Assembly: GCA_020848035.1 (NCBI GenBank)
Contig: JADLAX010000007.1
Coordinates: 1-64,000, forward strand
Reading direction: 5' to 3'
Source of the DNA: Anaerolineae bacterium
GTDB lineage: Bacteria; Chloroflexota; Anaerolineae; Promineifilales; Promineifilaceae
Length of the DNA stretch: 64,000 nt
The position numbers and the translations under genes are program-made. The notes below the pieces were generated by a model that had not been told where the DNA came from, ran no database searches, and saw only the letters and a program-made list of their open reading frames with translations. The number at the start of each line of letters is the position of its first letter. Within the stretch, counting starts at the first letter, position 1. Of this stretch, positions 2,660 through 21,148 are shown in pieces.

Positions 2660-2700
2660 GTGAGCCGCTGAGCCCTCCCGAATTTCGGGAGGGCTTTTTT
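2660..2700 (+). terminator. GAGCCGCTGAG leader plus intrinsic terminator-like hairpin
   Basis: GTGAGCCGCTGAG is followed by the perfect arms AGCCCTCCCGAA and TTCGGGAGGGCT and then T6. A ribosome-binding site and the start of the protease gene follow within 20 bases. The same leader-plus-hairpin occurs before the tape measure gene and the fibre gene. Confidence 0.75.
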
Positions 2701-2716
2701 GTTTTTGGAGGTGAGT

Positions 2717-4102
2717 ATGTCGAAAGGGATTGTTTCCCGACTAAAAGCATTGACGCAGCGTTCCAAGCCCCAGCAGTTTGAATCAGCCGCTGCCGTTGAA
2801 CGGGCTATCGGCTTTTCGCGGCTGCGGGACCAGGTGTGGCCGCTGATCGACGCGTTGGATATCCCGGAGCGTGGTTTATGGCATTGGCTGTCAGATGTCT
2901 ATTTCGATTCTGGGTCTCTGTATGTGCTGATCTACACCAGCACCGGCCGTCTGCTGCGGGCAAGCCTTACCGTGAGCGGTGACAGTGTTTCAATGGGTAC
3001 GCCGGTTACTGTGACAGAGATGCATGTACCGACCGCAGAGAACCGCGTGGTGACTCGCGTCTTCGAGACGGAAGACGGCCGTTTCCGGTGGTTGAGTATC
3101 TCCAACGTGGCCATCATGAATCGGGTGGGTGAGCTGGACAGCACCGCGCTGTTTGACAGTTTCATTGCTCATGCCAATGAGACTGGTGAATACCCCTACC
3201 GCACATTCTGGCATCAGGGCGAAGTGATGCGCACCGGGCAGGCGGACTTCCTGGCGCGTGATGGTTTCTGTTACATCACCTCCGGTCTGTATGAAGAAGA
3301 CAACGAACTGGCCCTGATTGAGATTGCCGCACTGCAAAACAGCCCCACTGGCTGGGGAGAAAGTATTGGTTTCGAGCCAACCGCGCTGCCGTCGCTGCTG
3401 CGGGTGGCTGATGATGTAAATGTTCCGGTTTATACACAGGGGATCAATCGTGAGATTTCCACCTGCCCCGAGGTGATGGCGGCCAGTTGGTTCACAACCC
3501 CAATGACGATGGAGGTCAATCGAATGAATGAAGGTGTCAAGAAAGGCTTACAGCAGTTGATGGCTGACGCCGGGGTTACGGATGAGGACGCCACCGCCCT
3601 GCTCGGTCACTTTGAGGGCGCGGTGGATCGTGTGAACACCCACGCGCAGCAACCTGGCGTCATCGCCCGCAGCACGGCCGCCGCACCGGCAACGGCCGTT
3701 GCCGAAGAAGATGCGGAAAAACCCAACGACGAAGGGGAGATCGTTGTTGATGAAACCGTGATTGAGGCCATCGTGGCGCAGCTGGAGCGCAGTGGCCGCC
3801 TGGTGCCGCCGGCTACAGCTAAGGTTGAACTTCCTGACGTGGATGCCATTGTGGCGCGTGTGAGTGAAGGCCTGGACGCCCAGTTGGGCCAGCTCGCGCA
3901 GCAAATCAATGACAACTTCGCCGCGCTCAGCGGGCGCATTGAGGCGGTGGAAGATGCCCTTGATGTTGAAGCAGAGCGGCTGGCGGACATGCCCGAGACG
4001 GCCCAGCGCACCATTGTTTACCGGCCCAGCAACCAAGGCACCGAAGGTGACGAGGCTCCAGCCTCTCAGCCTGCCGGGCTGGAAAAGCTGCCGGCTTATT
4101 AG
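2717..4102 (+). CDS. Prohead protease fused to a scaffold-like C-terminus
   Basis: 461 residues from the ATG at 2717, which follows GGAGGTGAGT; an upstream in-frame ATG at 2699 lies in the terminator. Residues ~130-270 resemble XkdF-like/herpes-assemblin-type prohead proteases: a conserved His in TFWHQG and a Ser in CYITSGLYEEDN are the likely catalytic pair. The C-terminal ~190 residues are acidic, Ala-rich and helical, with a coiled-coil stretch, as expected of a scaffold that is cleaved off. It lies directly before the major capsid gene, the usual place. The protease call rests on these motifs and position; the triad has not been checked structurally. Confidence 0.65.
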   Translation: MSKGIVSRLKALTQRSKPQQFESAAAVERAIGFSRLRDQVWPLIDALDIPERGLWHWLSDVYFDSGSLYVLIYTSTGRLLRASLTVSGDSVSMGTPVTVTEMHVPTAENRVVTRVFETEDGRFRWLSISNVAIMNRVGELDSTALFDSFIAHANETGEYPYRTFWHQGEVMRTGQADFLARDGFCYITSGLYEEDNELALIEIAALQNSPTGWGESIGFEPTALPSLLRVADDVNVPVYTQGINREISTCPEVMAASWFTTPMTMEVNRMNEGVKKGLQQLMADAGVTDEDATALLGHFEGAVDRVNTHAQQPGVIARSTAAAPATAVAEEDAEKPNDEGEIVVDETVIEAIVAQLERSGRLVPPATAKVELPDVDAIVARVSEGLDAQLGQLAQQINDNFAALSGRIEAVEDALDVEAERLADMPETAQRTIVYRPSNQGTEGDEAPASQPAGLEKLPAY

Positions 4103-4148
4103 TCGCGTTTGACAAATATTTGCCATTAAAAAGCAGGAGAACTCCCCT

Positions 4149-5606
4149 ATGACAGTTATGATTGCCCCAATTAACACCCGTACGCGCGTGCGCTCGAAGG
4201 CCACCGCGACCAAGCGCGCCGTGCAACGCGCGCAACAACCCATTGCACGGCCGTCTATTCACCAGCAGGCCCCCCAAACGTACGAAGCGCAAGCCGTGCA
4301 GCGCGCGATGAGTGTGTCCAATCTGGCCACGCCAATCGGGACCAACTTCTTTGACCGCTGCGGCGACGAAATCATGTCGCTGCACTATGGCCAGCAGTTG
4401 GACCTGTTGGACTGGATGGGTTTTGAGGTTTCCGATACGGCGTATCGCGTCCTGGAATTCATTGCCTACAATCGCGCCGCCCTGAGTGGCGGCAATCCCA
4501 CCGCTGGCCACCTGAGTGACCCCTGTGCTGATCCCAACGGCATCGAATACGGCACGGCCAAGCTCACCGTTGAGAACTTCGGCCGATACGGCCGTAAGGG
4601 GCCGGACCGGGAAATCATGAAGCCGAAGCGGTATTGTGCCACGGACCCCATTCGCCGCCTTGATGGTGAGGTTGTTACCTCTGAGAGCGAGTGGGATTTG
4701 CGCTTTGCCGTTGACGCCATGATTGGCGACATCCGCCGCGACCTGATCACCGGCAATGCTTCCGTTTCCGGTCAGTTCGATGGTTTGGAAGCCTGGGTGA
4801 AGACCAGCTACACCGGCCCCAACGCCGACGTGCTGAAATCCACCGTCATTGACTGGAATGGTAACCCGATGGCTGGTGGCGCGGGCGTGACCTGGAATGG
4901 CACGGCTATTGCCTCGAAGCCGGGCGGGGGCTACTACAACCTGATTGACGTGCTGCTGCCCGCGTGGCGCCGCATTCATCAGCGCATGATGTGGACCCGT
5001 CAGCTGCAAAACCAGCGGATGCGTTTGGGTGATGCAATCATCTTGCTGCCCACAATGCACGCGCAGTGCCTGCTGGATCATTTCACTTGCTGGAGCGTAT
5101 GCCCGGGCGGTGAATACAGCCCCGTCAACTTGCAGCAGATGGAAGCCCGCAAGTTCCGCAACGAACTGGTTCGCGCTGACAACCCCAACAACCTGTTTGG
5201 GTATGGGTACATCACGCTCGACAACACGACATTCCCGTTGATGGCCTACGACCCAGGGCTGATCAAAGGCCCAACGCGTGGCGACATCTACATGCTCTTT
5301 GGCTCTGTTGGCGGTGTGCGGTTGTGGGAAGGTGAACACCTGTCCGCAGCTGTGGCAGCCTCTGAGTTTGGCGACCACGGGTACACCTCGGTGGATGGTG
5401 GCCGTATCCTGACGCTGACCGAGACTGAGAACGAATGCTTCCATCTGAAAGCGTGGATGCACCCGCGCCTCTTCTGTCGTGCCCCGTGGGCTCAGGTTCG
5501 CTTCATGGATGTGGTATGCAGCCAGCCGGGTGGCCCGCTGAGCGGCGACCCCAACGACACCAGCTTCTTCTACAACAGCTCGTTCACGCCAGCGACGATT
5601 AGTTAG
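4149..5606 (+). CDS. Major capsid protein (HK97 fold)
   Basis: 485 residues from the ATG at 4149, preceded by AGGAGA. The basic N-terminus of ~50 residues may be a delta-like region removed during maturation. The core has features typical of HK97-fold capsid proteins, including a long spine-helix-like segment and a late region rich in Gly and aromatic residues. The size is normal for the family, and it follows the protease/scaffold gene. A GC-rich hairpin lies just after the stop codon and may protect the mRNA or limit read-through. Confidence 0.8.
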   Translation: MTVMIAPINTRTRVRSKATATKRAVQRAQQPIARPSIHQQAPQTYEAQAVQRAMSVSNLATPIGTNFFDRCGDEIMSLHYGQQLDLLDWMGFEVSDTAYRVLEFIAYNRAALSGGNPTAGHLSDPCADPNGIEYGTAKLTVENFGRYGRKGPDREIMKPKRYCATDPIRRLDGEVVTSESEWDLRFAVDAMIGDIRRDLITGNASVSGQFDGLEAWVKTSYTGPNADVLKSTVIDWNGNPMAGGAGVTWNGTAIASKPGGGYYNLIDVLLPAWRRIHQRMMWTRQLQNQRMRLGDAIILLPTMHAQCLLDHFTCWSVCPGGEYSPVNLQQMEARKFRNELVRADNPNNLFGYGYITLDNTTFPLMAYDPGLIKGPTRGDIYMLFGSVGGVRLWEGEHLSAAVAASEFGDHGYTSVDGGRILTLTETENECFHLKAWMHPRLFCRAPWAQVRFMDVVCSQPGGPLSGDPNDTSFFYNSSFTPATIS

Positions 5607-5629
5607 CTAATTTTTGCTGATGTTTGATG

Positions 5630-5658
5630 GCCGGGGGCTTCTGGACGAGGCCCCCGGC
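5630..5658 (+). terminator. GC hairpin after the capsid gene
   Basis: The arms GCCGGGGGC and GCCCCCGGC pair perfectly around an 11-base loop. There is no T-run, so it is more likely an attenuator or 3'-end stabiliser than a full terminator. Confidence 0.5.
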
Positions 5659-5673
5659 TATTGGGGAGAAACC

Positions 5674-7662
5674 GTGAACGATCTGACTATCATTATTCCA
5701 TTTTTCAACGGCCATGACACGATCGGCCCTTTGTTGGCCGGGCTGCCGCAGCAGCTCCCGGTGATCATTGTGGACGATTTAAGCGAACGGCCGTTAACCC
5801 CTGACGATTTGCCCAAGAAACGGCCGTCTGATGTGCGCATCATTCGGCTTGATGAGAAAGGCTATTTCTCCGGCGCAGTCAATTTCGGCATTTTGGCGTG
5901 CCGGACGGACGTGCTGGTGTTGAACCAGGATGTGACGCTAGAGGGCACCGCCTGGCTAAACGTGCTTTCTGAAAAGCACCAATTTTCCCTGATGGGCGAT
6001 GGTGTTTTTGGGCACCCGGCCTGGCCTGAAGGGTACGTGCAGGGGACATTCATGTTCATGCGCCGGGATGCGCTTGAGCAGGTTGGACTGCTGAATGCGG
6101 AGCAGTATCCGCTGTGGGGGGCTACCTGTGAATGGCAGCTGCGGGCATGCCGCCAGGGATTTTATGCCTACCCCATGAAGGAAATCCCCGGCTTCACGCA
6201 CAAGCGTGGCCAGCAGCCATACGGCAGCGGCATTCGCCAGCTGCTGCAGATGGAGCCAGAAAAGCGGGAGTGGCTCATCCAGACGCCGCCAACGGTGAGC
6301 GTGATTGTGAGCTGCTACAACTACGGCCGTTACCTGCCAGACCTGATCGCCTCGCTCATTGGTGGGGAGAGCAGCCTGGGCACAATGAAACCTCAGACCT
6401 TCCAGTCGTTTGAGGTGGTTATCGTCGACGATGCGAGCCAGGACGAGACGCCCGCCATTATCCGCTCATTGATAGACCCGTGGAAAGGTATCCGGTCCAT
6501 TCGGCTACCTGCGGCTGTTCACCCAGATGGCATGCCGAACAACGGCACGCCGTTGGCCAACAACGCAGGGATTGAAGCCAGTTACGGCCGTTACATCAGC
6601 ATCCTCGGTGGGGATGACATGATGGAGCACACGCGGCTGGGGCGGATGGTGCAGGCGCTGGAGGCTAACCCCCACTCAGTAATTTACGACGACATGCAGA
6701 TGTTTGCGCACGGCCGTCTGGGCCAGGTCATGCAGATGCGGGATTACAGCTTCGATGACCTGCTGCAGCGCAATCATATTCACGCGGGCATCATGTTCCC
6801 GCGCCAGGCATATGTAGACACCGGCGGCTACCCCGTTGCTATGCGGTACGGCCGTGAGGATTGGGCGTTCAACGTCGCCCTGGGCGTCCATGGGTATTGT
6901 GGCGTCCACCTGGATTATCCAGGCTATTTGTATCGAAGAGAGGAGCAAGGGCGCTCGACGCGGAACACAAACCCCTCGTGGATGAGCCGCTTTGCGGAGC
7001 AGATGCGTCGTTTGTTCCCCAGGATTTATGCAGGAGAAAGACCTATGGCTTGTTGTGGTCAGCGAAGCGTCTCTCTGCCAGCAGGCAGCGGGGCAAAAGG
7101 AATCGACATGAACAGTATTAACAACCTGGTTGGGCAGAAGGGCATGACCCTTGTTGAGTACCACGGCAGTAATGCGGGCACCCAGACATGGCACAGCCCA
7201 ATCACTAATGCCCGCTACGTTTTTGGCGGTAAGCGCAAGGTGGGCTTCGTGGACAATCGCGATTTGCAGTGGATTACCACGACGTTCTGGGAAGGTAATA
7301 AGCCTCTCTTCCGCAAAGCTCCACAACAGCCATCCGCGGCCGAGCTGGTGGTTGACCCCGGCGAAGCTGGCGTAGTTAATCCCCCTGCCCCTGGTGGCCC
7401 TGTAATCGGTGATGCCGATTTGAATCCGCCTGCTGCGGAAACGGCCGTTCCCGATGCGCCGGTAGAGGTTGTGGAGACGGCCGTGGTTGCGGCACCGTTT
7501 GACCCGAAGGCGCTGAACATCACGGACCTGAAGAAGCAGTTGGGCAGCCAGCCTTACAGCGTGGCCCAGCTGAGTGCGGTTCTGGCGGTGGAAAATGCCG
7601 ATTCGCCCCGTTCTGGCGCAGTGAGTGCGATTGAAGCGGCGATTGCTGCCGCTGGGGGCTAA
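5674..7662 (+). CDS. Tandem family-2 glycosyltransferase fused to a head-type protein
   Basis: 662 residues from the GTG at 5674, preceded by GGGGAGAAACC; an earlier TTG lies in the hairpin. Domain 1 (from TIIIPFFN) and domain 2 (from VSVIVSCYNYGRYLP, with VIVDDASQDET and GGDDMME) are GT-A folds. After about residue 455 the frame runs on without a stop into a different module: a small SH3-like head protein (VEYHGSNAGTQTWHSP, then FGGKRKVGFVD), an Ala/Pro linker and a short helical end. The second module has its own good starts: ATG 7045 after AGGAG and ATG 7108 after AAAGGAA. Two products, or one fusion that decorates the capsid with sugar, are both possible. Confidence 0.7.
   Translation: MNDLTIIIPFFNGHDTIGPLLAGLPQQLPVIIVDDLSERPLTPDDLPKKRPSDVRIIRLDEKGYFSGAVNFGILACRTDVLVLNQDVTLEGTAWLNVLSEKHQFSLMGDGVFGHPAWPEGYVQGTFMFMRRDALEQVGLLNAEQYPLWGATCEWQLRACRQGFYAYPMKEIPGFTHKRGQQPYGSGIRQLLQMEPEKREWLIQTPPTVSVIVSCYNYGRYLPDLIASLIGGESSLGTMKPQTFQSFEVVIVDDASQDETPAIIRSLIDPWKGIRSIRLPAAVHPDGMPNNGTPLANNAGIEASYGRYISILGGDDMMEHTRLGRMVQALEANPHSVIYDDMQMFAHGRLGQVMQMRDYSFDDLLQRNHIHAGIMFPRQAYVDTGGYPVAMRYGREDWAFNVALGVHGYCGVHLDYPGYLYRREEQGRSTRNTNPSWMSRFAEQMRRLFPRIYAGERPMACCGQRSVSLPAGSGAKGIDMNSINNLVGQKGMTLVEYHGSNAGTQTWHSPITNARYVFGGKRKVGFVDNRDLQWITTTFWEGNKPLFRKAPQQPSAAELVVDPGEAGVVNPPAPGGPVIGDADLNPPAAETAVPDAPVEVVETAVVAAPFDPKALNITDLKKQLGSQPYSVAQLSAVLAVENADSPRSGAVSAIEAAIAAAGG
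7108..7662 (+). CDS. Possible separate head protein from an internal start
   Basis: Same frame as the glycosyltransferase. The ATG at 7108 follows AAAGGAA, and another at 7045 follows AGGAGA. The product would be about 184 residues with an N-terminal beta domain (MTLVEYHGS, YVFGGKRKVGFVDNRD) like small proteins found between capsid and connector genes. Its C-terminus, LNITDLKKQLGSQPYSVAQL, resembles a HeH/Rho-N-like helical motif. Confidence 0.45.
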   Translation: MNSINNLVGQKGMTLVEYHGSNAGTQTWHSPITNARYVFGGKRKVGFVDNRDLQWITTTFWEGNKPLFRKAPQQPSAAELVVDPGEAGVVNPPAPGGPVIGDADLNPPAAETAVPDAPVEVVETAVVAAPFDPKALNITDLKKQLGSQPYSVAQLSAVLAVENADSPRSGAVSAIEAAIAAAGG

Positions 7663-7669
7663 TTTCATC

Positions 7670-7981
7670 ATGAATGACTGGCTGCTGCTGGCGCTTGCCA
7701 TCCTGGCGTGTTACCGACTGGCCCGGTTTGCGGTACATGAAGACGGTCCGTTTGGCTTCATGTTGAATATCCGCATCTGGGCTGGTCGATACGACTACGG
7801 CCCAAACGGTGAACCCCAGGGCACCCTGGGCAAGCTGTTTGCATGCCCGTATTGCACAGGCATGTGGATTGCGCTGGCGCTGGCAGCAGCTCTGTTTTGG
7901 CAACGGCCGTTGTGGATTCCACTAATATGGCTGGGGATCGCGGGTGGTCAGGCTTTCCTGGAAGGAATGTCGGGGCGTTAG
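7670..7981 (+). CDS. DUF1360-like membrane protein
   Basis: About 103 residues from the ATG at 7670. Two hydrophobic segments flank a CPYCTGMW motif, which is the signature of the DUF1360 family (YjcA-like). Such genes are common among phage head genes, but their role is unknown. It abuts the next gene without a gap. Confidence 0.75.
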   Translation: MNDWLLLALAILACYRLARFAVHEDGPFGFMLNIRIWAGRYDYGPNGEPQGTLGKLFACPYCTGMWIALALAAALFWQRPLWIPLIWLGIAGGQAFLEGMSGR

Positions 7982-9970
7982 ATGGCAACTCGACCCAGTA
8001 TTAACGGCACTCCGCAGTACGTTAACAGCACCAACACGATTTCCGTTACGTTGGCGGCTGCCGTAAACAAGCTGTTGGTCTTTGGTGCCTACTTTTACGT
8101 CAGCACAGGCGCTGCGCCCGGATCGGCCACATACAACAGCGTGGCGATGACCGGCCTGGGAGGCATTGAAATCGCGGCGGGGACACGCTCGGTCATCATT
8201 GAGGTGTTTGCGCTGGACATGCCTGCCACCGGCAGCCCGCATAATGCGGTGTATTCACCTGGTTCGACACCTACGGATATAGCGGTAATTGCGGTGCCCC
8301 TCCAAGACGCTGGGGATATCGGGGCAACCAGCCCCGCCCTGGCCGATAACGGCAGCGCAACAAACGCCACTGTCAGTTTTGATACAGATGATGTGGATGG
8401 GCTAATTGTGGCCATGCCTGTGCGGCGCGGTGGCGGGACGCCGCCGCTATGGACCCCAGGAAGCGGTTCAACCAAATGGGTTGACAGCGCCACCGGTACA
8501 AGTTCGACCTTCGACTTCATTTACAGCTTGCTCACCAAGGCGGCTACGGGCGGAACTGACACAATTAACGCCACCGTGGCCACGGCAAACAACATGGGCA
8601 TTTTGGCGGTCGAAATAAAGTCGATTGTTGCCGCAGGCAGCGATCTAGTTGAGGTGATTACCGAAGGGGTACAGCTGGTGGATGAGGCTGCACGACGGCT
8701 GGCAATGAGCCGGGTCGTTACTGAGACCGTGCAGATAGTAGAAATGCTCGCCCGTCTGCTGGGGCTGGTGCGCGCACCAGGTGAGGCAGTAGCAGTGGTT
8801 GAAGGCATTCTTCGACCTATGGCTCTTACCCGCTGGGGTGATGAGGTCATCGCGGTTGGGGATGGCTCACTGTATCGTCGAGGCTTAACCCGACGCTCAA
8901 ACGAAAATGTGCAGGTAGCGGAGGTTGTGGCCAGGCTGGCTGGTCTGGTTCGTGCCATCGCAAACACACTTTCAATTGGTGAAGGTTCGGCCCGGCCAAT
9001 GCATCTGCGGCGATTGATTAATGAAACTGTCCAGGCCCAGGAGGCAGGCGCGCGCCTGCGTGCACTGGTGCGCAGGGTCATTGAAGGTGTGCAGCTCCCC
9101 GAAACGGCCGTTCGCCTGATGGCCATGGTGAGAATCCGTCAGGAAACTGTGGCGGCGAGCGAGACAAACAGCCGCGTGGTGGGCTTTGTGCGGCAGGCCC
9201 TGGAGTCGGTGCAGAACATCGAGGCAGTGTCCCGCCTGGCAGGATTTGTGCGCCGGGCAAGCGAGACGGTGAGCGTGGAGGAAACGGCCGTTTACCGGCG
9301 CGCCCTCACCCGCCTGCTCAACGAGGTTACGGCCGTTGTTGAGCTGGTGGCCAACCCGCGCATTCTCAACCGCCTGATTGGCGAAACTGTCACGACGCCG
9401 GAGATTGTTGGGCGACTGAAGACGATGGTGCGTGGCCAAAGTGACGCTGTTCAAATTGGCGAGGGCAACGGCCGTGTGCTGGGATTCGTGCGGATGGTCT
9501 CGGATGTTGTAGGACTATCCGAAATAGCCGGGCAGGCTCGTGGCTTTTTGCGCATGGTGAATGACACAGTGCAGTTGAGTGAGGTAACTGGTCGCAACAT
9601 GGGTTTTGTGCGGCTTATCCTGGAGGGTGTGGGGCTTAACGAGACACTCGCCCGCTGGCGTGCCCTGCTCCGGGTGATTGGTGAAACCGAAACTGTGACA
9701 GAAACGGCCGTGTGGCGCATGGCCCTGATTCGCGTGATTTCCGAAAGCGTTCAGGTGCCCGAAGGTATTCTGCGCCTGGCGAGCTTTGTACGCAGCGCGG
9801 TTGAGATTGTGACGATCGCCGAAGACGCCAGCCGGGTCCGCGGTCTTATCCGCAGCGTGGCGGAAGATGTCGAGGTTAGCGAAGCCGTCTCCTGGCTATT
9901 TGGGGTGATAGGAACGGCCGTTGTGAAGTTCCGGGCCATGTGGCGCGGCATGTTCAGGGGGATGAGATGA
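7982..9970 (+). CDS. Repeat-bearing structural protein
   Basis: 662 residues. The first ~215 form a beta-sandwich-like domain (pattern ATYNSVAMT...IEVFALDMP) often found in virion appendages. Then come 20 consecutive repeats of exactly 20 residues with consensus R-x3-h-R-x3-E-x-V-x3-E-x4, up to residue ~637, then a basic tail. The repeats have diverged but never change length, which suggests a solenoid or fibre. It lies between head genes, so it may be a head fibre or neck appendage. I cannot name a family with certainty. Confidence 0.6.
   Translation: MATRPSINGTPQYVNSTNTISVTLAAAVNKLLVFGAYFYVSTGAAPGSATYNSVAMTGLGGIEIAAGTRSVIIEVFALDMPATGSPHNAVYSPGSTPTDIAVIAVPLQDAGDIGATSPALADNGSATNATVSFDTDDVDGLIVAMPVRRGGGTPPLWTPGSGSTKWVDSATGTSSTFDFIYSLLTKAATGGTDTINATVATANNMGILAVEIKSIVAAGSDLVEVITEGVQLVDEAARRLAMSRVVTETVQIVEMLARLLGLVRAPGEAVAVVEGILRPMALTRWGDEVIAVGDGSLYRRGLTRRSNENVQVAEVVARLAGLVRAIANTLSIGEGSARPMHLRRLINETVQAQEAGARLRALVRRVIEGVQLPETAVRLMAMVRIRQETVAASETNSRVVGFVRQALESVQNIEAVSRLAGFVRRASETVSVEETAVYRRALTRLLNEVTAVVELVANPRILNRLIGETVTTPEIVGRLKTMVRGQSDAVQIGEGNGRVLGFVRMVSDVVGLSEIAGQARGFLRMVNDTVQLSEVTGRNMGFVRLILEGVGLNETLARWRALLRVIGETETVTETAVWRMALIRVISESVQVPEGILRLASFVRSAVEIVTIAEDASRVRGLIRSVAEDVEVSEAVSWLFGVIGTAVVKFRAMWRGMFRGMR
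8693..9892 (+). repeat. Twenty tandem 60-bp coding repeats
   Basis: Each unit codes for 20 residues starting at an Arg (occasionally Tyr, Trp, Gln or Asn). Units such as RLAGFVRRASETVSVEETAV and RLASFVRSAVEIVTIAEDAS show the pattern. All units keep the same length, while the DNA identity between them is low. Confidence 0.85.
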
Positions 9971-10167
9971 AACACGTATTTTCGTTTTTTGGTTTTTTGC
10001 TCAAGTTAATCATCTTTGTTTTTTCCTACGCCTTCAGCAAGAAATTCCGGGCGTTGGTTAACTACAAGATGGCTCAATACCGGCGCGGATCTACAGAGCC
10101 AGTGACCAGCGGCGAAGAGGTATCGGCCGTGCTGGTTAACGCCAGGGGCAAAACCGTCATTCGTTAG
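9967..10167 (+). CDS. Small membrane protein
   Basis: 66 residues from the ATG at 9967, overlapping the previous stop codon (ATGA). It has one strong hydrophobic helix (FFGFLLKLIIFVFSYAF) followed by a basic region. Function unknown. Confidence 0.6.
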   Translation: MKHVFSFFGFLLKLIIFVFSYAFSKKFRALVNYKMAQYRRGSTEPVTSGEEVSAVLVNARGKTVIR

Positions 10168-10175
10168 GAGGCACC

Positions 10176-10775
10176 ATGTTTTTGAAACTGACATCCCAAT
10201 GTATTCAGCGCTTTCAGGTAAACGTATCGCGCTACTGGCTGGACGAGATCATTGCTCAGGTAATGAGGCGCCGTGAACGCGAGGTGGCCATCGGCGGCAA
10301 AGTGTTTGCCGTGCTGCGGGATCCGCTGCTGGAACGCGAGCTGATCATTCCCGGCCTCAACATTGTGACCAATGCTGGGGATGTTTACTATGCCCAACTG
10401 GGCGCTGGTGAGGCGGTTACCAACAACTTCGCCACCGGTGGTCTGCGGCTGGGCGACGATAATACCGCGCCGACCAAGGGTGACAACGATGTGACCGCAT
10501 TCCTGGCCGGTACGGGGCATGCGATTGATGCCACCTACCCCAAGACCGACGATGATGACGGTGACAACGGCGACGCGGGGACTGATGTAGTTTCCTATCG
10601 TTACAGCTACACCACGGCCCAGGGTAACGCGGCTGACATCATTGAAGGGGCCATTGTCAACAACATCGTGACGCCCACTGTGGCCCTGACACACTTCTTG
10701 TTTGCCGCCGCGTTTGGCAAAACTTCGTCGGACACGTTGAAGGTTTTTGTTAACCACACGATGAATGGAGTCTAG
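10176..10775 (+). CDS. Phage structural protein, unknown
   Basis: 199 residues preceded by AGGAGG. It has Gly/Asn-rich beta segments and an Asp-rich stretch (TDDDDGDNGDAGTD) that could bind calcium. A beta-rich C-terminus (VTPTVALTHFLFAAAFGK) resembles decoration or neck proteins. It is tightly clustered with the neighbouring head genes. I do not recognise a family. Confidence 0.55.
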   Translation: MFLKLTSQCIQRFQVNVSRYWLDEIIAQVMRRREREVAIGGKVFAVLRDPLLERELIIPGLNIVTNAGDVYYAQLGAGEAVTNNFATGGLRLGDDNTAPTKGDNDVTAFLAGTGHAIDATYPKTDDDDGDNGDAGTDVVSYRYSYTTAQGNAADIIEGAIVNNIVTPTVALTHFLFAAAFGKTSSDTLKVFVNHTMNGV

Positions 10776-10777
10776 GT

Positions 10778-10993: not shown

Positions 10994-10995
10994 CG

Positions 10996-13113: not shown

Positions 13114-13130
13114 TTTTTTTGCCCGGTGCG

Positions 13131-13146
13131 GTTTCGCGAGGTTTCA
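13131..13146 (+). promoter_or_regulatory. GTTTCR tandem box
   Basis: GTTTCG at 13131 and GTTTCA at 13141, exactly 10 bp apart, directly precede the GTG start at 13147. The GAGG between them can also serve as the ribosome-binding site. Confidence 0.6.
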
Positions 13147-13632
13147 GTGGTTATTCAGGTCAAGGCCAAGAGGGCAAAAACGCTTAAAGAAGGGGTTTTT
13201 AGGCTGGAATTCCTGAATGAATTTCAGAGGATGGCCCCTGAAATTAAGCGGGACTTTGCTGCAACGACAGCCACGTGGGAGGGCGAGAAGCCTAAATTCT
13301 CGCACAAAGCTTTCCTGAATGAGGGTAATCCTACCTTGCAGATTCTTATTGGCACAGGTAAGGGTGCCGACAAGTGGAACTGGCTGGATAAGGGGACACG
13401 GGTGCGCTACGCGACCATGACCCCAAATTTTCAAGGCAAAACGAAGGTTGGTTTTATCGGCAGTTTCCCCGGGCGCGGCGGGCTGGCCTATGTAAACAAG
13501 CAACGGCCTCGGCCAGGCATTAAGCCTCGTGGCTTTCGCCGGGTTATTGAGCGCAAGTGGAAACGGCCGATTGAAAGACGTATGAAGGCCGCTAATAAGC
13601 GGGCGGCAAAGAAGTCCGGTCACGGAAAGTAA
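13147..13632 (+). CDS. Neck / tail-completion protein (HK97 gp10-like)
   Basis: About 161 residues from the GTG at 13147, which has GAGG 6 bases upstream; a GTG at 13126 is possible but lacks such a site. The motif WLDKGTRVRYATMTPNF and the later RPGIKPRGF pattern are typical of HK97 gp10-like proteins that close the connector. The C-terminus is very basic. The position before the tail tube gene agrees. Confidence 0.7.
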   Translation: MVIQVKAKRAKTLKEGVFRLEFLNEFQRMAPEIKRDFAATTATWEGEKPKFSHKAFLNEGNPTLQILIGTGKGADKWNWLDKGTRVRYATMTPNFQGKTKVGFIGSFPGRGGLAYVNKQRPRPGIKPRGFRRVIERKWKRPIERRMKAANKRAAKKSGHGK

Positions 13633-13643
13633 AGGAGCGATCT

Positions 13644-14027
13644 ATGGATGATGATGAGCCGACAAAGGCAACCCCACAGATAAAGGTTCGTGTGGTGCAG
13701 CGGCGCGGCGAAAGCGCACTGGTGGAGTGGCTGGACGGCGAGCGGCAGAGCCGGGCCATGATTCCGGCAACTGCCGTTGTTGATGACCTGGTGGCTGAGG
13801 ATGTGTTGGCCGCTGGTATTCCCTACGGCGTGACGTGGGGCGAGCTGGTGCAGCTGACGGCTACACCGGATGCGGTGCAGGCTGAGCTTTACCGGGTGGG
13901 CGTGTGGACAGTGGATGATTTGAGGCGAAACCCCCAGTTGGCGCTGGGTGCCTTACAGCGTGTTTACGGTACGGATCTGGCCGCGTTGATGCGGGCAGCC
14001 AAAGAATATGAAAGTGGAGGTAGCTAA
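13644..14027 (+). CDS. Neck/tail hypothetical protein
   Basis: 127 residues preceded by AAAGGAG. The N-terminal half is an SH3-like strand set (VRVVQRRGESALVEW), and the C-terminal half is helical (LYRVGVWTVDDLRRNPQLA). It is coupled to the tail tube gene by a TAATG overlap. Unknown. Confidence 0.55.
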   Translation: MDDDEPTKATPQIKVRVVQRRGESALVEWLDGERQSRAMIPATAVVDDLVAEDVLAAGIPYGVTWGELVQLTATPDAVQAELYRVGVWTVDDLRRNPQLALGALQRVYGTDLAALMRAAKEYESGGS

Positions 14028-15460
14028 TGAGCAGTCGTCAATACGGTTCCAACGAGGGGAGTATTTTTGTCCAGCCAGACGGCCCCAACACAAAGCCCCT
14101 GTATCTGGGCTGTCACGATATCGGGGATCTGGATGAACCGCTGGGTGATCCGGCACTATGGCAGTGTAAAGACCCTAACCTGGTGGGTCAGTGGGAGACC
14201 AGCCGCGTGGTTGTGGGCTCGCCCGGGCTGGTAACTACCAGCATCACCACAGATGTGCGCAAGGTGGCGGATTACATGGAAACTCTGCCAAACAATTCAC
14301 CCATCTACATCAACCTGATGCCAGAAAACGTTAAGCCCGATGTGTTTGACAGCTATGACCGGGCTTTTGCCGCCCGCTTCCTGGCCACCAATCGCAAGCG
14401 CAGCAACCTGGCCATGGGGCGCGCCACGGACAGCGGCACCAACGAGCGGGCCGAGCAAGTGATCGACCTCTCCGGCGCGCCGCCGGTGTACACCTTCTTT
14501 GACCTCGCCGGTGCCTCGCTGCGCATTTCCACGAGCGAAACGCTGGCGCTTAACAACATCGTCTTCTGTGATGCAGCTTGCAGTGAAGGCTTTATCGCGG
14601 CTGACGGCGGTGTGGCGGCGGCCAACGTGTTAGGCATTCCGGGCTTTACGGCCGTAACCGCTGATCCCTTCGCTGTAAACCAGAACATCGTCGGTGCCGT
14701 TTGCTTCCCTATCGACAAAAATACCACACGTTGGCTGGTAGCCCGCGGCACCTCCGCAGCTGCCCCAGCTACAGTAGCCTATTCGGACAATGGCGGCACG
14801 ACGTGGACAAGTGTCAACGTCGGTTCAACCAACACCCAGATCGCGAATGATTCGGCCGCGCTGTTTGCTCTGGACCAGTTCAACATCTGGTTTGCCACCA
14901 ATGACGGCTTTATCTACAAGTCCGAAGACGGCGGCCTGAGCTGGACTGCCCAGGAAGAAGGTGTCATCACCTCTAACGAGATAAACGCCGTGTACTTCAA
15001 GGATCCGCTGAACGGCATGGCTGGCGGTGATGGTGATGTGTTGATGCGCACCACGGATGGTGGGCTTACCTGGGCGGCTGTGACGGCTACGGGTGGCGGG
15101 GACAACATCACTACCATTGCCAATTCAGGAGGCTTCTGGTGGGCGGCCGACAGCGGTGGCCAGCTGTGGTACTCGGGCGATGACGGGTTGACCTGGAACG
15201 CTCGCACGTTCAACGGTTCGGGCACGGGTAATGTGGCTGCAGTGAAGTTTGCCAATGAGTTTTTTGGTGTGATGGCTCACAACACCGCCGCGCCGCTGGG
15301 CAGCGTCTTTGTGACCGTCAACGGCGGCTACACCTGGCAGAAAATTGCCCTGCCGGCCAACGCAGGCATCAACGACATCTGGATTTGCAGCACCCGCAAG
15401 ATTTATGTGGTGGGCGAAGCCCAGGGCGGTACCGGCTTTATTGCCAAGATTGAGGTTTAA
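14027..15460 (+). CDS. Probable tail tube protein with a BNR/Ycf48-type propeller
   Basis: 477 residues. The first ~190 are a beta-rich domain in the place of the major tail protein (just before the tail chaperone and tape measure genes). Residues ~230-477 hold repeated Asp-box-like units (YSDNGGTTWTS, KSEDGGLSWTA, RTTDGGLTWAA, YSGDDGLTWNA, VTVNGGYTWQK), typical of BNR/Ycf48-like beta-propellers. Such a domain would project from the tube and could bind sugars. A strong terminator follows the stop codon. The tube assignment is by position. Confidence 0.65.
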   Translation: MSSRQYGSNEGSIFVQPDGPNTKPLYLGCHDIGDLDEPLGDPALWQCKDPNLVGQWETSRVVVGSPGLVTTSITTDVRKVADYMETLPNNSPIYINLMPENVKPDVFDSYDRAFAARFLATNRKRSNLAMGRATDSGTNERAEQVIDLSGAPPVYTFFDLAGASLRISTSETLALNNIVFCDAACSEGFIAADGGVAAANVLGIPGFTAVTADPFAVNQNIVGAVCFPIDKNTTRWLVARGTSAAAPATVAYSDNGGTTWTSVNVGSTNTQIANDSAALFALDQFNIWFATNDGFIYKSEDGGLSWTAQEEGVITSNEINAVYFKDPLNGMAGGDGDVLMRTTDGGLTWAAVTATGGGDNITTIANSGGFWWAADSGGQLWYSGDDGLTWNARTFNGSGTGNVAAVKFANEFFGVMAHNTAAPLGSVFVTVNGGYTWQKIALPANAGINDIWICSTRKIYVVGEAQGGTGFIAKIEV

Positions 15461-15516
15461 GCGGGACACGGCCGTTGGCCAACTGCGTTGGCTCGGCCAA
15501 CGGCCGTTCCGCTTTT
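15461..15516 (+). terminator. Strong hairpin built from two ACGGCCGT palindromes
   Basis: The arms GCGG..ACGGCCGTTGGCC and GGCCAACGGCCGT..CCGC pair over 13 perfect bases plus a GCGG/CCGC clamp, followed by TTTTC. It lies directly after the tail tube gene. Confidence 0.7.
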
Positions 15517-15627
15517 CTGGGAGACATATTGTCATGGTCAAGCCGGGCTGGCAGCGGGCGCCTCTCCCCCGCCACCCCAAACGCTCCAGTCTGGCTGACC
15601 ACCTTTCTCAAGGGGAGAAAACATTGA

Positions 15628-16275
15628 ATGTCTACAAAAGTTAAGCCAAACCGCAGAAACCGACGTGCTGCCGCAGCACAACAGCGCAAACAACCAAAGC
15701 CGGGTTTGCACGGCGGCGGCGCTGTTTATGAACGATATGTCTCCAGCCGGGGAACGGCCGTTCACTTTTACCCCATGCCCCCTATGTTGATGGAGAAGAT
15801 TGAGGTGGGTGTGGAGGCTGAATTTGGCCCGCGCCCGGAGCCACCGACCTACACCATCAAAACGGCCGTGGGCGAAGATGAGGTCCGTACGCACACGAAA
15901 GAGACGTTGGACACGCCCGAAGACCGGGCAGCCTGGGCGGCCTATGAAGAGGAGCTAGGCGTCTGGGAAAGTGAGCTGAGTCGCCGCGTGCTACGGGCGA
16001 TTCAGGTTGAATGCATCAAGCCAGCTGATCCAGACGATACCGACTGGATGGAAAAGCAGGCCTTTTTGGGGGTGCCCATTCCTGAAGGCAAGTATCAGCG
16101 CCATCTGCACTGGATCGAAACAGAGTTCATTGGCAGCAATGAAGATGTGGTGGCCTGTATGTCCATCCCCATGCGCCTGGCGGGCGTGCCGGATGAGGAG
16201 ATGGCGGCAGCTGAAAAGTTGTTTCGCGATTCAATACAAGCGCAAGCCAATCGAACGGGCGCTGCCGCCGGATGA
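15628..16275 (+). CDS. Tail assembly chaperone, short form (gpG-like)
   Basis: 215 residues from the ATG at 15628, preceded by AAGGGGAGAAAA. The N-terminus is basic; the rest is acidic and helical. It lies between the tail tube and tape measure genes, the standard place for the gpG/gpGT pair. A second frame overlaps its 3' end and continues past its stop codon, as expected if some ribosomes shift frame to make a longer product. Confidence 0.65.
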   Translation: MSTKVKPNRRNRRAAAAQQRKQPKPGLHGGGAVYERYVSSRGTAVHFYPMPPMLMEKIEVGVEAEFGPRPEPPTYTIKTAVGEDEVRTHTKETLDTPEDRAAWAAYEEELGVWESELSRRVLRAIQVECIKPADPDDTDWMEKQAFLGVPIPEGKYQRHLHWIETEFIGSNEDVVACMSIPMRLAGVPDEEMAAAEKLFRDSIQAQANRTGAAAG

Positions 16276-16519
16276 TAAGGCGTTTGAGTTTGAGCGCAGT
16301 TATGCCGGGCTTCTGTTTAACAAGATGAATGCTGTTTATCAGTGGCGCGCCGGACGGCCGTCGGATTTCGGCTTGTGTGAGCCGGGCGAGGACTTGCCGC
16401 TAATGATGGCATTCATGAAAACGAAACGAAACATAGAGCTTGTTCAGGACAAGGAACAAGCCCGCAAGCTGGAGGACGCAACCGCCAAGCGTCATTTTAA
16501 GAATCTTCGCGGCAGCTAA
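16226..16519 (+). CDS. Tail assembly chaperone, frameshift extension (gpT-like)
   Basis: This frame is offset by +1 (equivalently -2) from the short form and has no credible start of its own. It reads on from about 16226 with AIQYKRKPIERALPPDD, then a region with FERSYAGLLFNKMNAVYQWRAG, to a stop at 16519. A plausible slip point is TTT C at 16222-16225, where tRNA-Phe can re-pair with TTC. The fused product would be about 297 residues. The exact shift site is inferred. Confidence 0.55.
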   Translation, partial: AIQYKRKPIERALPPDDKAFEFERSYAGLLFNKMNAVYQWRAGRPSDFGLCEPGEDLPLMMAFMKTKRNIELVQDKEQARKLEDATAKRHFKNLRGS

Positions 16520-16529
16520 GTAAACCGCA

Positions 16530-16583
16530 TATACACAAGTGAGCCGTTGAGCCTTTCCGAAAACTCGGAAAGGCTCTTTTTTT
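16530..16583 (+). terminator. -10 box, GAGCCGTTGAG leader and terminator-like hairpin
   Basis: TATACA (16530) is followed by GTGAGCCGTTGAG and the perfect arms GAGCCTTTCCGA and TCGGAAAGGCTC, then T7, ending 4 bases before the tape measure ATG. The only AAAGG-like ribosome-binding site of that gene lies inside the 3' arm of the hairpin. Confidence 0.75.
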
Positions 16584-16586
16584 GCT

Positions 16587-19500
16587 ATGGAAACGATTGG
16601 TCTAGAGGCATTCATCAATATGGGTGCCTTCCGTGCGGCATTCAAAGAGTACAACTCCTCTGTTGTACAGATGAACACCAACACGGAAACGGCCGCATCT
16701 GGCATCACTGGAAAATTCCAGTCGATGGGCAACTCGGTCCTGGGCATCGCCAAAGGGCTGGGCACGGCGATGGTGGCCGGAGCCACTGCGGCCATGGGAG
16801 CGATCACTGCTTTTGTGGGCAGCGGGGTCAAGCTGGCCACAGACCTTGAAGCGCAGATGGCAGGGGTGCGAGCCGTCCTGGGCATTACCGCTGATGACCT
16901 GGAGCTAATCCGACAGAAAACAATCGACTTGGGTCTAAATCCCAACTTGAAGGTTTCGGCCGTTGAAGCGGCTGGCGCAATTGAAATGCTGGCCAAAAAT
17001 GGCCTGAGCATGCAGGAGATTTTGGACGGCGCGGCCGAATCCACCATCTTGCTGGCCAACGCCACCGGTGCAGAATTTTCCAATGCGGCCAATATCGCGA
17101 CCGACGCGATGGCAATCTTCAACATCGGCGCCGGCGACATGCTGGCGGCGGTTGATGGGATCTCCTCAGTCACCGTCAGCTCCAAATTTGATATAGAAGA
17201 TTACGCCAACGCCCTGGCTCAAGGTGGCGGTGCCGCATCGGTTGCGGGTGTGGAATTCAACGATTTCAATGCGGCCATAGCCGCCATGAGCCCTCTGTTC
17301 AAGGCGGGGTCAGACGCGGGCACTTCTTTCAAAACCTTCCTTCAGCGAACCGTTCCCCAAAGCGCTCAAGCAGCAGAAGCCATAGAAGCACTTGGTCTGG
17401 AGTTCTTCGACGCCAACGGCAACATGCGCAGCATGGCAGATATTTCTGGCCAGTTGAACCAGGCTATGTATGGCACGTCCACTGCCATGACAGAGGTGGG
17501 CGGCCGTACCGCTGAGCAGAATGCAGAGCTGCAGCGCCTGGGCCGAATCTACGATTCGACCCTCCAAACTATCGCAGACTACGAGGCTGGGATCAAAGGG
17601 GCCGGGCTGTCTGAGGCAGCACGCGCGGACAGACTAGAAGATCTCCGCCTACAGCTTGGGAACACAGAAGCAGCCATGCAGCCGCTGTTGTCCATCCAAG
17701 GTGAGATGGTGGCCACAACCCGCCAACTGACCGAGGCGGAGCGGCTCCAATATCTGACTACCATCTTTGGGGCTGACGCCATGCGGGCCGCAGCTGGGTT
17801 GGCCGAATTCACCGAGGAAGAGTTTGCCGCTCTACAGGCGACGATGGGTGACACCAGCGCCCTGGACCAGGCGCGTATCCGGGTTGATACGCTGGCTGGG
17901 GCGATGGATATCTTCGCAGGCATTATTGAAGCGCTGAAGATCCAGGTGGGAGACGCTTTCATTCCGCTCATCCGCCAGGTTGTTGAGAGCCTGTCCAAAT
18001 TTGTAGAGGCCAATCAAGAAAAGATTGTTGGGTTTTTCCAAGGAATTGTCACATTCATCGAGACGCTGGTCGGCTCTCTCCAGTCAGGTTCCGGACCAAT
18101 AGAGGCATTCCTATCGGCACTGTCCGCTGTTGGTGTATCTGACGGCCTGGTGACCCAAATTGGCGATTTTGTCAATCGTGCTCGCGAACTCATTGATGTG
18201 GTGCGCGAGTTTGTTACCAATCACGCCGAGGCGTTTAAGGGGGCGCTGCTGGCGATTGGCGCGGTGCTGGCGGCCGCCGCGATCGCGGCGGCAATTACTG
18301 GTATCGTGGCGGCCATTGGTTCATTTGCTACAGGGATCGGACCCATACTTCTGCTTGTTGGGCTATTAGGGGCCGTGGTTGCGGAAAACTGGGACACGAT
18401 TCAGGCAGCCATTCTCTCTGCCTGGGCAGCGATAAAGCCTACGTTCGATGCATTCATGAGCGTGCTGAACGCGCTATGGGGCGAGATCAAGCCGGGCGTG
18501 AAGATATTGGGCCAGTTTGCCAGTCAGATCGTTGAGGCATTTCGCGGAGGTGGGGTTAAGGCAGCGATCCAAGAATTTGTGAACTTGTGGCCCGCAATCC
18601 AAACAGTAATCACGGCAACAATTACCAAAGTGCTGTCGTTTCTGGGGGCAAAGTTCGGCGTAGACCTGGTTGGTATTTTCAACAATGTTCGCGCAGTGCT
18701 TCAAACTGCCTGGACTGTTATTTCTGGCGTCATCACCTCGGCAATCTCAATCATCCAACCGACTGTGCAAAACCTATTTGCCGGGTTTACGGATGCGTTT
18801 AATTCGTTCGCCCCGTTAGGCGAGTCCTTCAAAAACCTCTGGCAAACCCTCCAGCCAGTTATCACAACCGTGGCGGCGGTCATTGGTGCAGCGCTGCTGG
18901 CCCTGGTGGGCGTTGTGGTGGGTGTGTTCAACGGCATTATTGCCGCTATCAACCCTCTCATCACCACGCTGGGCTTTGTGTTGAACGGCGTGGTTGTGTT
19001 TGTGGACGGGGTCATTGAATTCTTTACCGGCCTGTTCTCCTTTGTGGTGGGTTTGTTCACCGGCAATACGGAGAAAATGAAAGAGGCCTGGGCCACCATG
19101 GGCGCGGGTATCACAAACGTCGTGCTGGGCCTGGTAGAAGCGGTTGTGGGCCTGGTAACGGGGCTGTGGACCACGCTATCAGCATTGGTCAGTGGATTAG
19201 TTGAAGGAGTGATCGGTTTCTTTAGGAACCTGTATGACACGCTGGTTGGCCACAGCATCATTCCAGATTTGGTCAATGCCATTGTTGAGTGGATTACCGG
19301 GCTGAAGGACAAGTTTGTCCAGCTGATCATCACGCTGGTGACCAACGTCGTTAACAAGTTTATCGAGCTGAAAGATGGGGCCATTGAGCGAATCCAGGCG
19401 CTGCGGGATTCGGCCGTTTCTCTGTTTGACGCGCTGAAAACGGCCGTTTCCAACAAGATCGAGCTGCTGAAAATTGCGGCGACGAATAAGTTCAACCTGA

Positions 19501-20105
19501 TCAAAACGGCAGTTGTGGACAAACTGACCGAGCTGAAGAACGATGCGGTGGCCAAGGCGCTGGAGATTAAAGACAGCGTGGTAGCCAAGTTTGAAGAGCT
19601 AAAGACGTCTTTGATGAACAAGGTTGAGGCATTCAAATCAATCGGCTCCAACCTCATCATTGGCATCAAAGACGGCATCATGTCCCAAGTGGCCAGCTTG
19701 ATGACGGCAGTAGAGGGACTTGTCGCCATGCTGCCGCAAGCGGTTAAAGACTTGTTGGGGATTGCCTCGCCCTCGAAGCTTTTCTACTCGTTTGGGGTGA
19801 ACGTCATTCGCGGCTTAATCAACGGCGTGCTCTTCATGCGGTCGGCCGCCACGGCGGCGATGCGGAACGTGGTAGGTTCTCTGCCGGGGGTGGACCTGAA
19901 TGTGAGTGCCAGCAACCTGGCACGGGGCAGTTCAAATGCGGGGGTGGCGGCAGCACGGCCGTCCGTGGTGCAGCTGGATCCGTCGTCGCTGCGCGGACTG
20001 GGTGGCGGTGAGACGAACCACAATTATTACCTGACCAACCATTCTGGGGGTAGCCAGCTGGGCATACGCCAGGCATTCAGATTGATGGAGCTGTCCAGAG
20101 CATGA
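16587..20105 (+). CDS. Tail tape measure protein
   Basis: 1172 residues. The N-terminal ~260 match the TP901-type tape measure core (GVRAVLGITADDLELIRQ, GLSMQEILDGA, MSPLFKAGSDAGTSFKTFL). A long hydrophobic, repetitive, helical middle follows (residues ~540-830). The C-terminal region has amphipathic repeats and ends with a typical IASPSKLFYSFG motif. By the usual rule of about 0.15 nm per residue the tail would be near 175 nm. It follows the chaperone frames. Initiation may depend on melting of the hairpin just upstream. Confidence 0.92.
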   Translation: METIGLEAFINMGAFRAAFKEYNSSVVQMNTNTETAASGITGKFQSMGNSVLGIAKGLGTAMVAGATAAMGAITAFVGSGVKLATDLEAQMAGVRAVLGITADDLELIRQKTIDLGLNPNLKVSAVEAAGAIEMLAKNGLSMQEILDGAAESTILLANATGAEFSNAANIATDAMAIFNIGAGDMLAAVDGISSVTVSSKFDIEDYANALAQGGGAASVAGVEFNDFNAAIAAMSPLFKAGSDAGTSFKTFLQRTVPQSAQAAEAIEALGLEFFDANGNMRSMADISGQLNQAMYGTSTAMTEVGGRTAEQNAELQRLGRIYDSTLQTIADYEAGIKGAGLSEAARADRLEDLRLQLGNTEAAMQPLLSIQGEMVATTRQLTEAERLQYLTTIFGADAMRAAAGLAEFTEEEFAALQATMGDTSALDQARIRVDTLAGAMDIFAGIIEALKIQVGDAFIPLIRQVVESLSKFVEANQEKIVGFFQGIVTFIETLVGSLQSGSGPIEAFLSALSAVGVSDGLVTQIGDFVNRARELIDVVREFVTNHAEAFKGALLAIGAVLAAAAIAAAITGIVAAIGSFATGIGPILLLVGLLGAVVAENWDTIQAAILSAWAAIKPTFDAFMSVLNALWGEIKPGVKILGQFASQIVEAFRGGGVKAAIQEFVNLWPAIQTVITATITKVLSFLGAKFGVDLVGIFNNVRAVLQTAWTVISGVITSAISIIQPTVQNLFAGFTDAFNSFAPLGESFKNLWQTLQPVITTVAAVIGAALLALVGVVVGVFNGIIAAINPLITTLGFVLNGVVVFVDGVIEFFTGLFSFVVGLFTGNTEKMKEAWATMGAGITNVVLGLVEAVVGLVTGLWTTLSALVSGLVEGVIGFFRNLYDTLVGHSIIPDLVNAIVEWITGLKDKFVQLIITLVTNVVNKFIELKDGAIERIQALRDSAVSLFDALKTAVSNKIELLKIAATNKFNLIKTAVVDKLTELKNDAVAKALEIKDSVVAKFEELKTSLMNKVEAFKSIGSNLIIGIKDGIMSQVASLMTAVEGLVAMLPQAVKDLLGIASPSKLFYSFGVNVIRGLINGVLFMRSAATAAMRNVVGSLPGVDLNVSASNLARGSSNAGVAAARPSVVQLDPSSLRGLGGGETNHNYYLTNHSGGSQLGIRQAFRLMELSRA

Positions 20106-21040
20106 GCGATTTAAGGATTGTGGCTAAGGTCGCCGATGAACGGCTTCTGCTCACCGGCAGTGGGATTACGCTGCTGGATTATTCCGGGTTAGGAATGGCG
20201 AACGTGCGGCGATTGTCTGAGGTTGGGCCGTTTCAGCTGGGCGAAACTGATCTAGATTACCGGCAGGATTCGCGCGTGGTGATGCTGAAGCTGGGATTAA
20301 CCGGCCGGGGGCGCGACCCGTTGTTGGACCTGGAAAATCTACGCCAGCGCTTGATGACGGTTTTCCGACCACGGGTAGGCGACCCGGTAGCGTTGACATT
20401 GACGACAAACGGCCGTTTGCTGCAGCTCGATGGCAACCTGGAAGGGTTGATGGACGTGCCGATGCGTGACTGGGTAGGTTACGCCGATGAGGTAATGGCA
20501 CTGACGATCAAAGCCGGGGATCCACGACTGTATGACCCGCGGCTGCGGACTGTGTCGTTCAACATTGTGACGGCGTTGGCTGGCTGGAGCATTCCCTGGC
20601 CGATTCCGTGGTCCATTGGTGAATCCATCCTGGATGTAACGCAGACGGTTTACTATGCCAATGGAGACAAGAGCGCGGCAGAAGAGTACCCGATTATTCG
20701 CATTGCCGGGCCGATTTATGCGCCGGTAGTAGAGAACTTGACCACGGGTGAGCAGCTGGCGTTCACGGCTGAAGGCGGGCTGCTGCTGGAGCCGGGTGAC
20801 TATGTGGACATTAACCTGGGGTATGGCTTCAAAACGGCCGTTAACCAGCTGGGAGCGTCGGTAGAGCAGTATTTGAGTGATGGCAATGACCTGGCGACCT
20901 GGCACCTGGCTTACAACACGGAGCTGCTGAGTGATGGCAGCCGCTGTGATGGGAACAATGTTATTCGAGTGACGGGCGTGGGGGCGACGCTAAGCACGGA
21001 AGTGACGATGTTTTACTACAATCGGTATTTGGGGCTCTAA
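20102..21040 (+). CDS. Distal tail protein (Dit-like)
   Basis: 312 residues, overlapping the tape measure stop by 4 bases. The N-terminal ~150 residues (VGPFQLGETDLDYRQDSRVVMLKLGL, RLMTVFRP, LEGLMDVP) fit siphovirus Dit/TIGR-type phage tail domains. The rest carries a beta-rich galectin-like insertion. It would form the hub at the tail tip. Confidence 0.7.
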   Translation: MSDLRIVAKVADERLLLTGSGITLLDYSGLGMANVRRLSEVGPFQLGETDLDYRQDSRVVMLKLGLTGRGRDPLLDLENLRQRLMTVFRPRVGDPVALTLTTNGRLLQLDGNLEGLMDVPMRDWVGYADEVMALTIKAGDPRLYDPRLRTVSFNIVTALAGWSIPWPIPWSIGESILDVTQTVYYANGDKSAAEEYPIIRIAGPIYAPVVENLTTGEQLAFTAEGGLLLEPGDYVDINLGYGFKTAVNQLGASVEQYLSDGNDLATWHLAYNTELLSDGSRCDGNNVIRVTGVGATLSTEVTMFYYNRYLGL

Positions 21041-21050
21041 AGAAACTTCA

Positions 21051-21087
21051 CGCAACCTATTGAAACATTCTGAAACCAGCCTATAAT
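21051..21087 (+). promoter_or_regulatory. Promoter with three 10-bp-spaced boxes (reverse orientation)
   Basis: CGCAAC (21051), TGAAAC (21061) and TGAAAC (21071) are reverse-strand GTTKCR half-sites spaced exactly 10 bp. They overlap TTGAAA (21060-21065), 16 bases before a perfect TATAAT (21082-21087). Confidence 0.7.
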
Positions 21088-21097
21088 ATTTAAGTAT

Positions 21098-21148
21098 AAG
21101 AGCCGTTGAGCCGACTTCTGCCAGATGTGGCAGGGGTCGGCTTTTTTG
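21098..21148 (+). terminator. GAGCCGTTGAG leader plus terminator-like hairpin
   Basis: AGAGCCGTTGAG leads into a two-part stem (AGCCGAC/GTCGGCT and CTGCCA/TGGCAG) followed by T6. A GGGAGG ribosome-binding site and the fibre gene start follow. This is the third copy of this leader type. Confidence 0.7.

Follow-up and report, generated by a model that had tools for sequence, protein, structure and literature searches.

A repeated GAGCC leader joined to an intrinsic terminator precedes phage late genes and may be read by Com-type zinc-ribbon proteins

Introduction

Three late genes of a single phage element are each preceded by the same short leader and an immediate transcription terminator, raising the question of what the common leader does and how RNA polymerase gets past the terminator. 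To our knowledge, how late genes are switched on in most non-lambdoid phages is unknown. Here, we describe the three sites, the wider family to which they belong and a candidate class of protein partners, and weigh the explanations for their arrangement.

Results

The element and its late genes

The window, the whole stretch of DNA analysed, comprises the first 64 kb of a contig of 101,576 bp (G000:C7) in a 7.6-Mb bacterium. The contig carries an exact 127-bp terminal direct repeat (contig 1-101576), and the molecule is therefore circular. Because its genes include a GpA-type terminase, a tape measure, ParA, a ParB-like gene, an integrase and a CBASS locus, it reads as a complete circular phage-plasmid. 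The CBASS locus (contig 73802-76658, L022) is a pair made of a SMODS cyclase and a SAVED effector. A ThiF (E1-like) gene is found at 41774, and Prok-E2_D, Prok-JAB and Prok_Ub domains are present among the scanned contig proteins; with the ThiF region (about 40500-43700), these represent a possible ubiquitin-like conjugation operon. An 8-bp palindrome, ACGGCCGT, occurs in 152 copies on the 101-kb contig (e.g., at 31, 587, 3692 and 5787) and is frequent on other contigs of the genome too (50 in 31.6 kb). In the related element, G016:C62, its place is taken by GCGGCCGC (215 copies); both are HIP1-like iterated palindromes and may be host-specific. A module of ~190 bp beginning CCTATCTATTCATACTGGCCCC precedes operons at 2423 and 33181 and at contig positions 77543 and 92775, and some of its copies carry a terminator.

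The coordinates of the three sites and their genes are given in Table 1. The first gene has no family match of its own, and the AlphaFold (AF2) models of two window proteins, that of this gene included, were of too poor quality to use; IMG/VR contains no relatives of this gene. The sequence-only reading had called it protease/capsid, and it is probably a capsid protease, based on position alone in the window phage and on a Peptidase_S77 counterpart in G016.

Table 1. Features at the three leader-terminator sites (window coordinates)
Feature	Position	Strand	Evidence
Sigma70-type promoter TTGACA-17-TAGAAT, copy 1	2601..2629	+	p 0.003 against random contig windows
Tandem 10-bp repeats GTTGCAAAAG/GTTTCA, just past the -10, operator-like	2631..2646	+	
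Leader copy 1, GAGCCGCTGAGCC, with Com-type motif CCGCTGAG inside	2662..2674	+	Covariance model E 5e-7 (5.4e-7)
Terminator hairpin GAGCCCTCCCGA..TCGGGAGGGCTT and T-run, copy 1	2670..2702	+	Fold
First late gene, probable capsid-maturation protease	2717..4102	+	Position; counterpart in G016 is Peptidase_S77
Leader copy 2, GAGCCGTTGAGCC	16541..16553	+	Covariance model E 1.6e-9
Terminator hairpin and T-run, copy 2, adjoining the tape-measure start; no upstream promoter detected	16549..16583	+	
Tail tape-measure protein gene	16587..20105	+	PHROG 1272, E 2e-60
Sigma70-type promoter TTGAAA-16-TATAAT, copy 3	21060..21087	+	p 0.002 against random contig windows
GTTKCA tandem repeats, reversed, inside promoter 3	21061..21076	-	
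Leader copy 3, GAGCCGTTGAGCC	21100..21112	+	Covariance model E 1.2e-9
Terminator hairpin and T-run, copy 3	21108..21149	+	Fold, covariance model
Tail-fibre/virion structural protein gene	21166..22110	+	Protein-family match

Three leader-terminator sites in the window

The leader GAGCCGYTGAGCC, followed by a perfect hairpin and a T-run, occurs at 2662, 16541 and 21100 on the plus strand, each time within the 5' leader of one of the late genes. The stems begin inside the leaders (at 2670, 16549 and 21108). The combined pattern has three matches in the window and none in 100 shuffles, which confirms the arrangement that the sequence-only reading had described at three late genes. That reading had also proposed looking for the leader elsewhere in the element. 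The 7.65-Mb genome contains 12 copies of the 12-mer GAGCCGYTGAGC, and only the three window sites are followed by a hairpin. With a relaxed pattern, 396 genomes of the class yielded the three window sites and nine others, approximately the number given by a reversed-pattern control. On its own the leader is unstructured: six of the seven leaders tested, including all three from the window, fold at 0 kcal/mol.

Only at the tape-measure copy does the hairpin run right up to the ATG. There, no Shine-Dalgarno sequence is found between hairpin and ATG, and the sole purine tract, GGAAAGG, belongs to the 3' arm and precedes the ATG by 13 nt; the earlier remark that this hairpin covers the ribosome-binding site is thus a fair one. 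The Shine-Dalgarno sequences of copies 1 and 3 are free.

Strong, consensus-like promoters were predicted close upstream of copies 1 and 3, with the leader at about +26 and +6 from the predicted start, so the spacing is variable. Three promoters had been proposed from the sequence; two stand, but at the tape-measure copy none was detected (best p 0.30 against random contig windows). Nor is the leader the only conserved part, as had been claimed, because tandem GTTKCANNNN repeats are common to both promoters. These 10-bp repeats occur at about 11 intergenic or promoter places on the contig (2631, 21061-21076 on the minus strand, 26364, 32978, 34867, 35964, 39415, 43701 on the minus strand and 47891; contig 79123 on the minus strand and 92948) and are likely the operator of a phage repressor or of an activator. 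Given their presence at both promoters and at about 11 intergenic places, initiation is probably regulated too.

A family of GAGCC leaders in uncultured phages

Scans for the exact 13-mer in IMG/VR and in 85k genomes gave chance-like results save for L003, L004 and L066, and a family emerged only once the two middle bases were relaxed. The relaxed IMG/VR scan, which fixed GAGCC-NN-TGAGCC and a GGCT-T-run base and then applied a folding-energy filter, recovered 119 stretches, about 100 of them distinct and 77 with good folds. The two free bases are strongly biased (AT, TT, TA, GT), and many contigs carry two copies. The next gene usually lies within tens of bases, with a start codon that can be 20-140 nt away, and typically encodes a portal, scaffold, terminase (TerL), head protease, major head/capsid or tape-measure protein. 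Some copies have strong promoters of their own (11 compared with 1.4 expected) and others have none; elsewhere in the family, the leader is found 18-26 nt past the -10.

Selecting copies by fixed GAGCC, TGAGCC and GGCT and by folding energy inflates the apparent conservation and pairing rate. Fairer tests are covariation relative to slid partners and matches on the window, which was left out of training. Compensatory changes are extensive in the alignment of 61 non-window copies, with helix covariation in 152 both-side cells versus 54 when shuffled. A covariance model built from this alignment (R1) finds exactly three sites in the 64-kb window (E 1.2e-9, 1.6e-9 and 5.4e-7; next best 0.23) and, in another genome of the class (G358), matches once, in a region that resembles a prophage (L154). 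Rfam 15 gave no family at its curated threshold for either the window or the IMG/VR loci, and the literature searched contains no report of the motif in a phage-leader context. The leader-terminator is thus apparently a widespread element of phage late genes that is undescribed in the sources searched.

A repeated hairpin-leader in another phage group, with CCGCCTCCTGAATGGCGG directly before several terminators (L080 at 5339, 7424 and 15984; L077 at 6828), was considered for membership and rejected as a different element.

Relatives of the window phage carry a similar layout

Tracing relatives in the same class through TerL similarity gave two informative elements. In the first, G016:C62 (109 kb), another leader, CCAGGAAC-N3-5-GAGACACGG, is present three times with a hairpin: one copy before a protease-capsid fusion (Peptidase_S77), one before a small gene and one abutting the tape-measure start. 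The second, G050:C578, has GTGAAACGTTGAGAC and a hairpin before a gene that is protease-like by eye only and has no IMG/VR relatives. The layout and the choice of genes are common to the window phage, G016 and G050, and the leader and stem sequences differ. Because the G016 and G050 leaders lack CC-N-GAG and are missed by R1, theirs is a related layout and not the same element. Four phage records with related portal, terminase or tape-measure proteins contain no full copy; one of them (MT835513) has a partial copy.

Com-type zinc ribbons adjoin many leaders

We found that the genes ending at the leader often encode small zinc-ribbon proteins resembling Mu Com. A Com profile built from 12 leader-adjacent genes matches 73 of 115 leader loci, versus 0 of 49 and 0 of 26 control loci, which are not phylogeny-matched. 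When the 12 seed loci are left out, a Com stop codon falls within -40 to +30 nt of the leader at 23 of 67 sites, where random positions in the same loci predict 0.45, and some phages have the com stop codon inside the leader itself.

In vitro selection (SELEX) with a Mu-type Com zinc finger yielded the RNA motif 5'-CC(N)2-3GAG-3', which is often bipartite in a GAG..CC arrangement (PMC6483171). The repeat GAGCC-N3-GAGCC includes CC-N3-GAG, the GAG of which is the 5' base of the terminator stem, and all three window leaders contain CC(N)2-3GAG. Judging from motif and gene neighbourhood, the leaders are most likely read by Com-type RNA-binding proteins.

No com gene adjoins any of the three window leaders. 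A weak Com candidate for the window phage, bearing CPQC..CPKC, is located at contig 100608-101009, about 3 kb upstream of copy 1; its profile E-value of 0.0016 falls among those that unrelated control chunks give (0.0003-0.47). A tblastn search of INPHARED with two Com queries returned no homologs. Other candidate factors were discarded. The zinc finger at G050 15603 resembles a topoisomerase-type finger, no link was found for a PC4-domain protein, and a NusG paralog was rejected because none is encoded on the element: the contig has no RfaH/LoaP-type paralog and the only two NusG genes of the genome are on other contigs. The gene at contig 78152-78586, common to G016, matches a PHROG 'transcriptional regulator', has two similar repeats and probably encodes the PC4-domain protein of the contig scan.

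Discussion

A protein-controlled attenuator as the preferred reading

The anatomy of the sites, their recurrence before late genes in many phages, the covariation, the linkage to Com-like genes and the match to the Com motif can be read directly from the sequences. Taken as a whole, they are best explained, with a probability that we put at roughly one half, if every site attenuates transcription of a late gene from within its 5' leader, under the control of a protein, and is opened by a Com-type factor. RNA polymerase would enter from a promoter just upstream or by read-through from the previous gene, and would transcribe GAGCC-N3-GAGCC followed by the terminator, whose stem base would be the second GAGCC paired with GGCUC/GGCUU beside the U-tract. 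When the factor is absent, transcription would stop and the late genes would remain silent. The factor, most likely a zinc ribbon of the Com type, would be a small RNA-binding protein that, late in infection, binds the nascent CC-N3-GAG. With CC taken from the first repeat and GAG from the second, neither repeat could fully close the stem base at the U-tract. The weakened terminator would let polymerase proceed into the protease/capsid, tape-measure and fibre genes. We infer the binding, the direction of its effect and, for the window phage, the identity of the factor.

Constrained folding bears on two parts of this scheme. With the second repeat blocked, the first takes the GGCUC partner in 63 of 64 copies; this ability of repeat 1 to replace a blocked repeat 2 would account for the direct repeat. 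When CC-N3-GAG is blocked, the stem base becomes weaker by about 7 kcal/mol (medians -21.8 to -14.6), and the stem, though shorter beside the U-tract, is mostly retained. Read-through upon Com-type binding is therefore plausible and not certain, since part of the GGCT by the U-run stays paired in all 64 copies. The antitermination effect is probably local and not processive, because each terminator keeps its own leader, the promoterless tape-measure copy included.

The sequence-only reading had suggested a shared antitermination or attenuation signal in the first ~13 nt of each transcript. The recurrence, the stem covariation, the Com motif and the Com-like neighbours favour such a signal, but a promoter is found at only two of the three copies and the leader is not the sole conserved part.

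Weighing other explanations

In lambda pR'-tR', too, a strong promoter leads straight into a terminator, and the direct repeat TGAGCC-GY-TGAGCC has the same 8-bp phase as the TGAGCA repeats of the phage 21 QBE (PMC6606751). Both would suit processive antitermination of the Q/AlpA/GafZ type, in which a phage DNA-binding protein loads onto polymerase at a promoter-near direct repeat and the downstream terminator is then ignored. However, the QBE sits between -35 and -10, whereas the leader repeat lies past the predicted start at a variable distance (+6 and +26 here, 18-26 nt after the -10 elsewhere), often has no promoter, overlaps the stem and is present as a separate copy at each terminator. 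Among about 100 contig proteins there is no match to a named Q-type family in Pfam or PHROGs, although distant forms may escape such searches, and we consider this reading unlikely. An improbable alternative, too, is a translational switch as in Mu com-mom, with leader and hairpin hiding the ribosome-binding region until a Com-type protein opens it and termination being secondary. Mu Com does activate mom translation by binding a leader hairpin (PMC6483171), and in two of the three G016 copies, as at the tape-measure gene of the window, an ATG comes directly after the hairpin and lacks a Shine-Dalgarno sequence. Yet every copy comes close to a perfect intrinsic terminator, U-tract included, and many have a free Shine-Dalgarno sequence past the hairpin, with a start codon that may be 20-140 nt away.

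The sites could also be plain terminators or insulators whose partial read-through tunes late gene ratios, the leader being an evolutionary remnant or the end of a com gene. Terminators are common between late genes and the com stop codon within some leaders fits this idea, but leader identity is kept at three window places that have no adjacent com gene and in phages with diverged flanks (L003/L004), and the stems covary strongly, making this quite unlikely. Finally, promoter and terminator together would yield RNAs of ~50-75 nt with the same 5' sequence, which might act in trans as small RNAs with a common 13-nt seed. We regard this as very unlikely: any complement of the 11-nt core in the window has at least two mismatches, and the two-mismatch minus-strand matches that were checked fall in coding sequence.

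Comparison with known systems

The proposed attenuator resembles Mu com/mom in that the Com motif CC(N)2-3GAG lies by an inhibitory hairpin before a late gene, with a Com-like gene adjoining many copies. It differs in having an intrinsic terminator as its hairpin, in preceding capsid, tail and packaging genes and in being present in several copies in one phage; the known role of Mu Com is to activate translation, whereas the role proposed here would be antitermination. As in the BglG/SacY/LicT RAT sites, TRAP, HutP and PyrR, a protein bound to the nascent leader would decide the fate of an overlapping terminator. Unlike those systems, there is no separate antiterminator hairpin, the leader is unpaired, the second repeat doubles as the stem base and the targets are phage late genes. 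The Q-dependent systems (lambda, 21; AlpA; GafZ) likewise combine a promoter, an immediate terminator and late genes, but the site described here is in the transcript, at a variable distance and repeated at each terminator, and no Q was detected. HK022 put and lambda nut are also phage leader RNA elements ahead of terminators; in contrast to them, the present leader has no fold of its own and no boxB or put-like stem-loops. The element is apparently a variant of protein-controlled attenuation undescribed in the sources searched.

Significance

Many uncultured phages carry the element before genes for packaging, capsid and tail. We tentatively suggest, at somewhat less than even odds, that Com-type proteins, whose one known role is the activation of Mu mom translation, are a widespread class of phage late-gene antiterminators, and that com and the GAGCC-N3-GAGCC leader-terminator form a self-contained switch that opens genes for lysis as well as for packaging, capsid and tail in phages of several bacterial phyla. 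Pairing a candidate protein with an RNA element that is short and can be searched for makes the question of the late-gene switch directly testable, and such a role would give a function to many orphan com-like genes beside phage structural genes.
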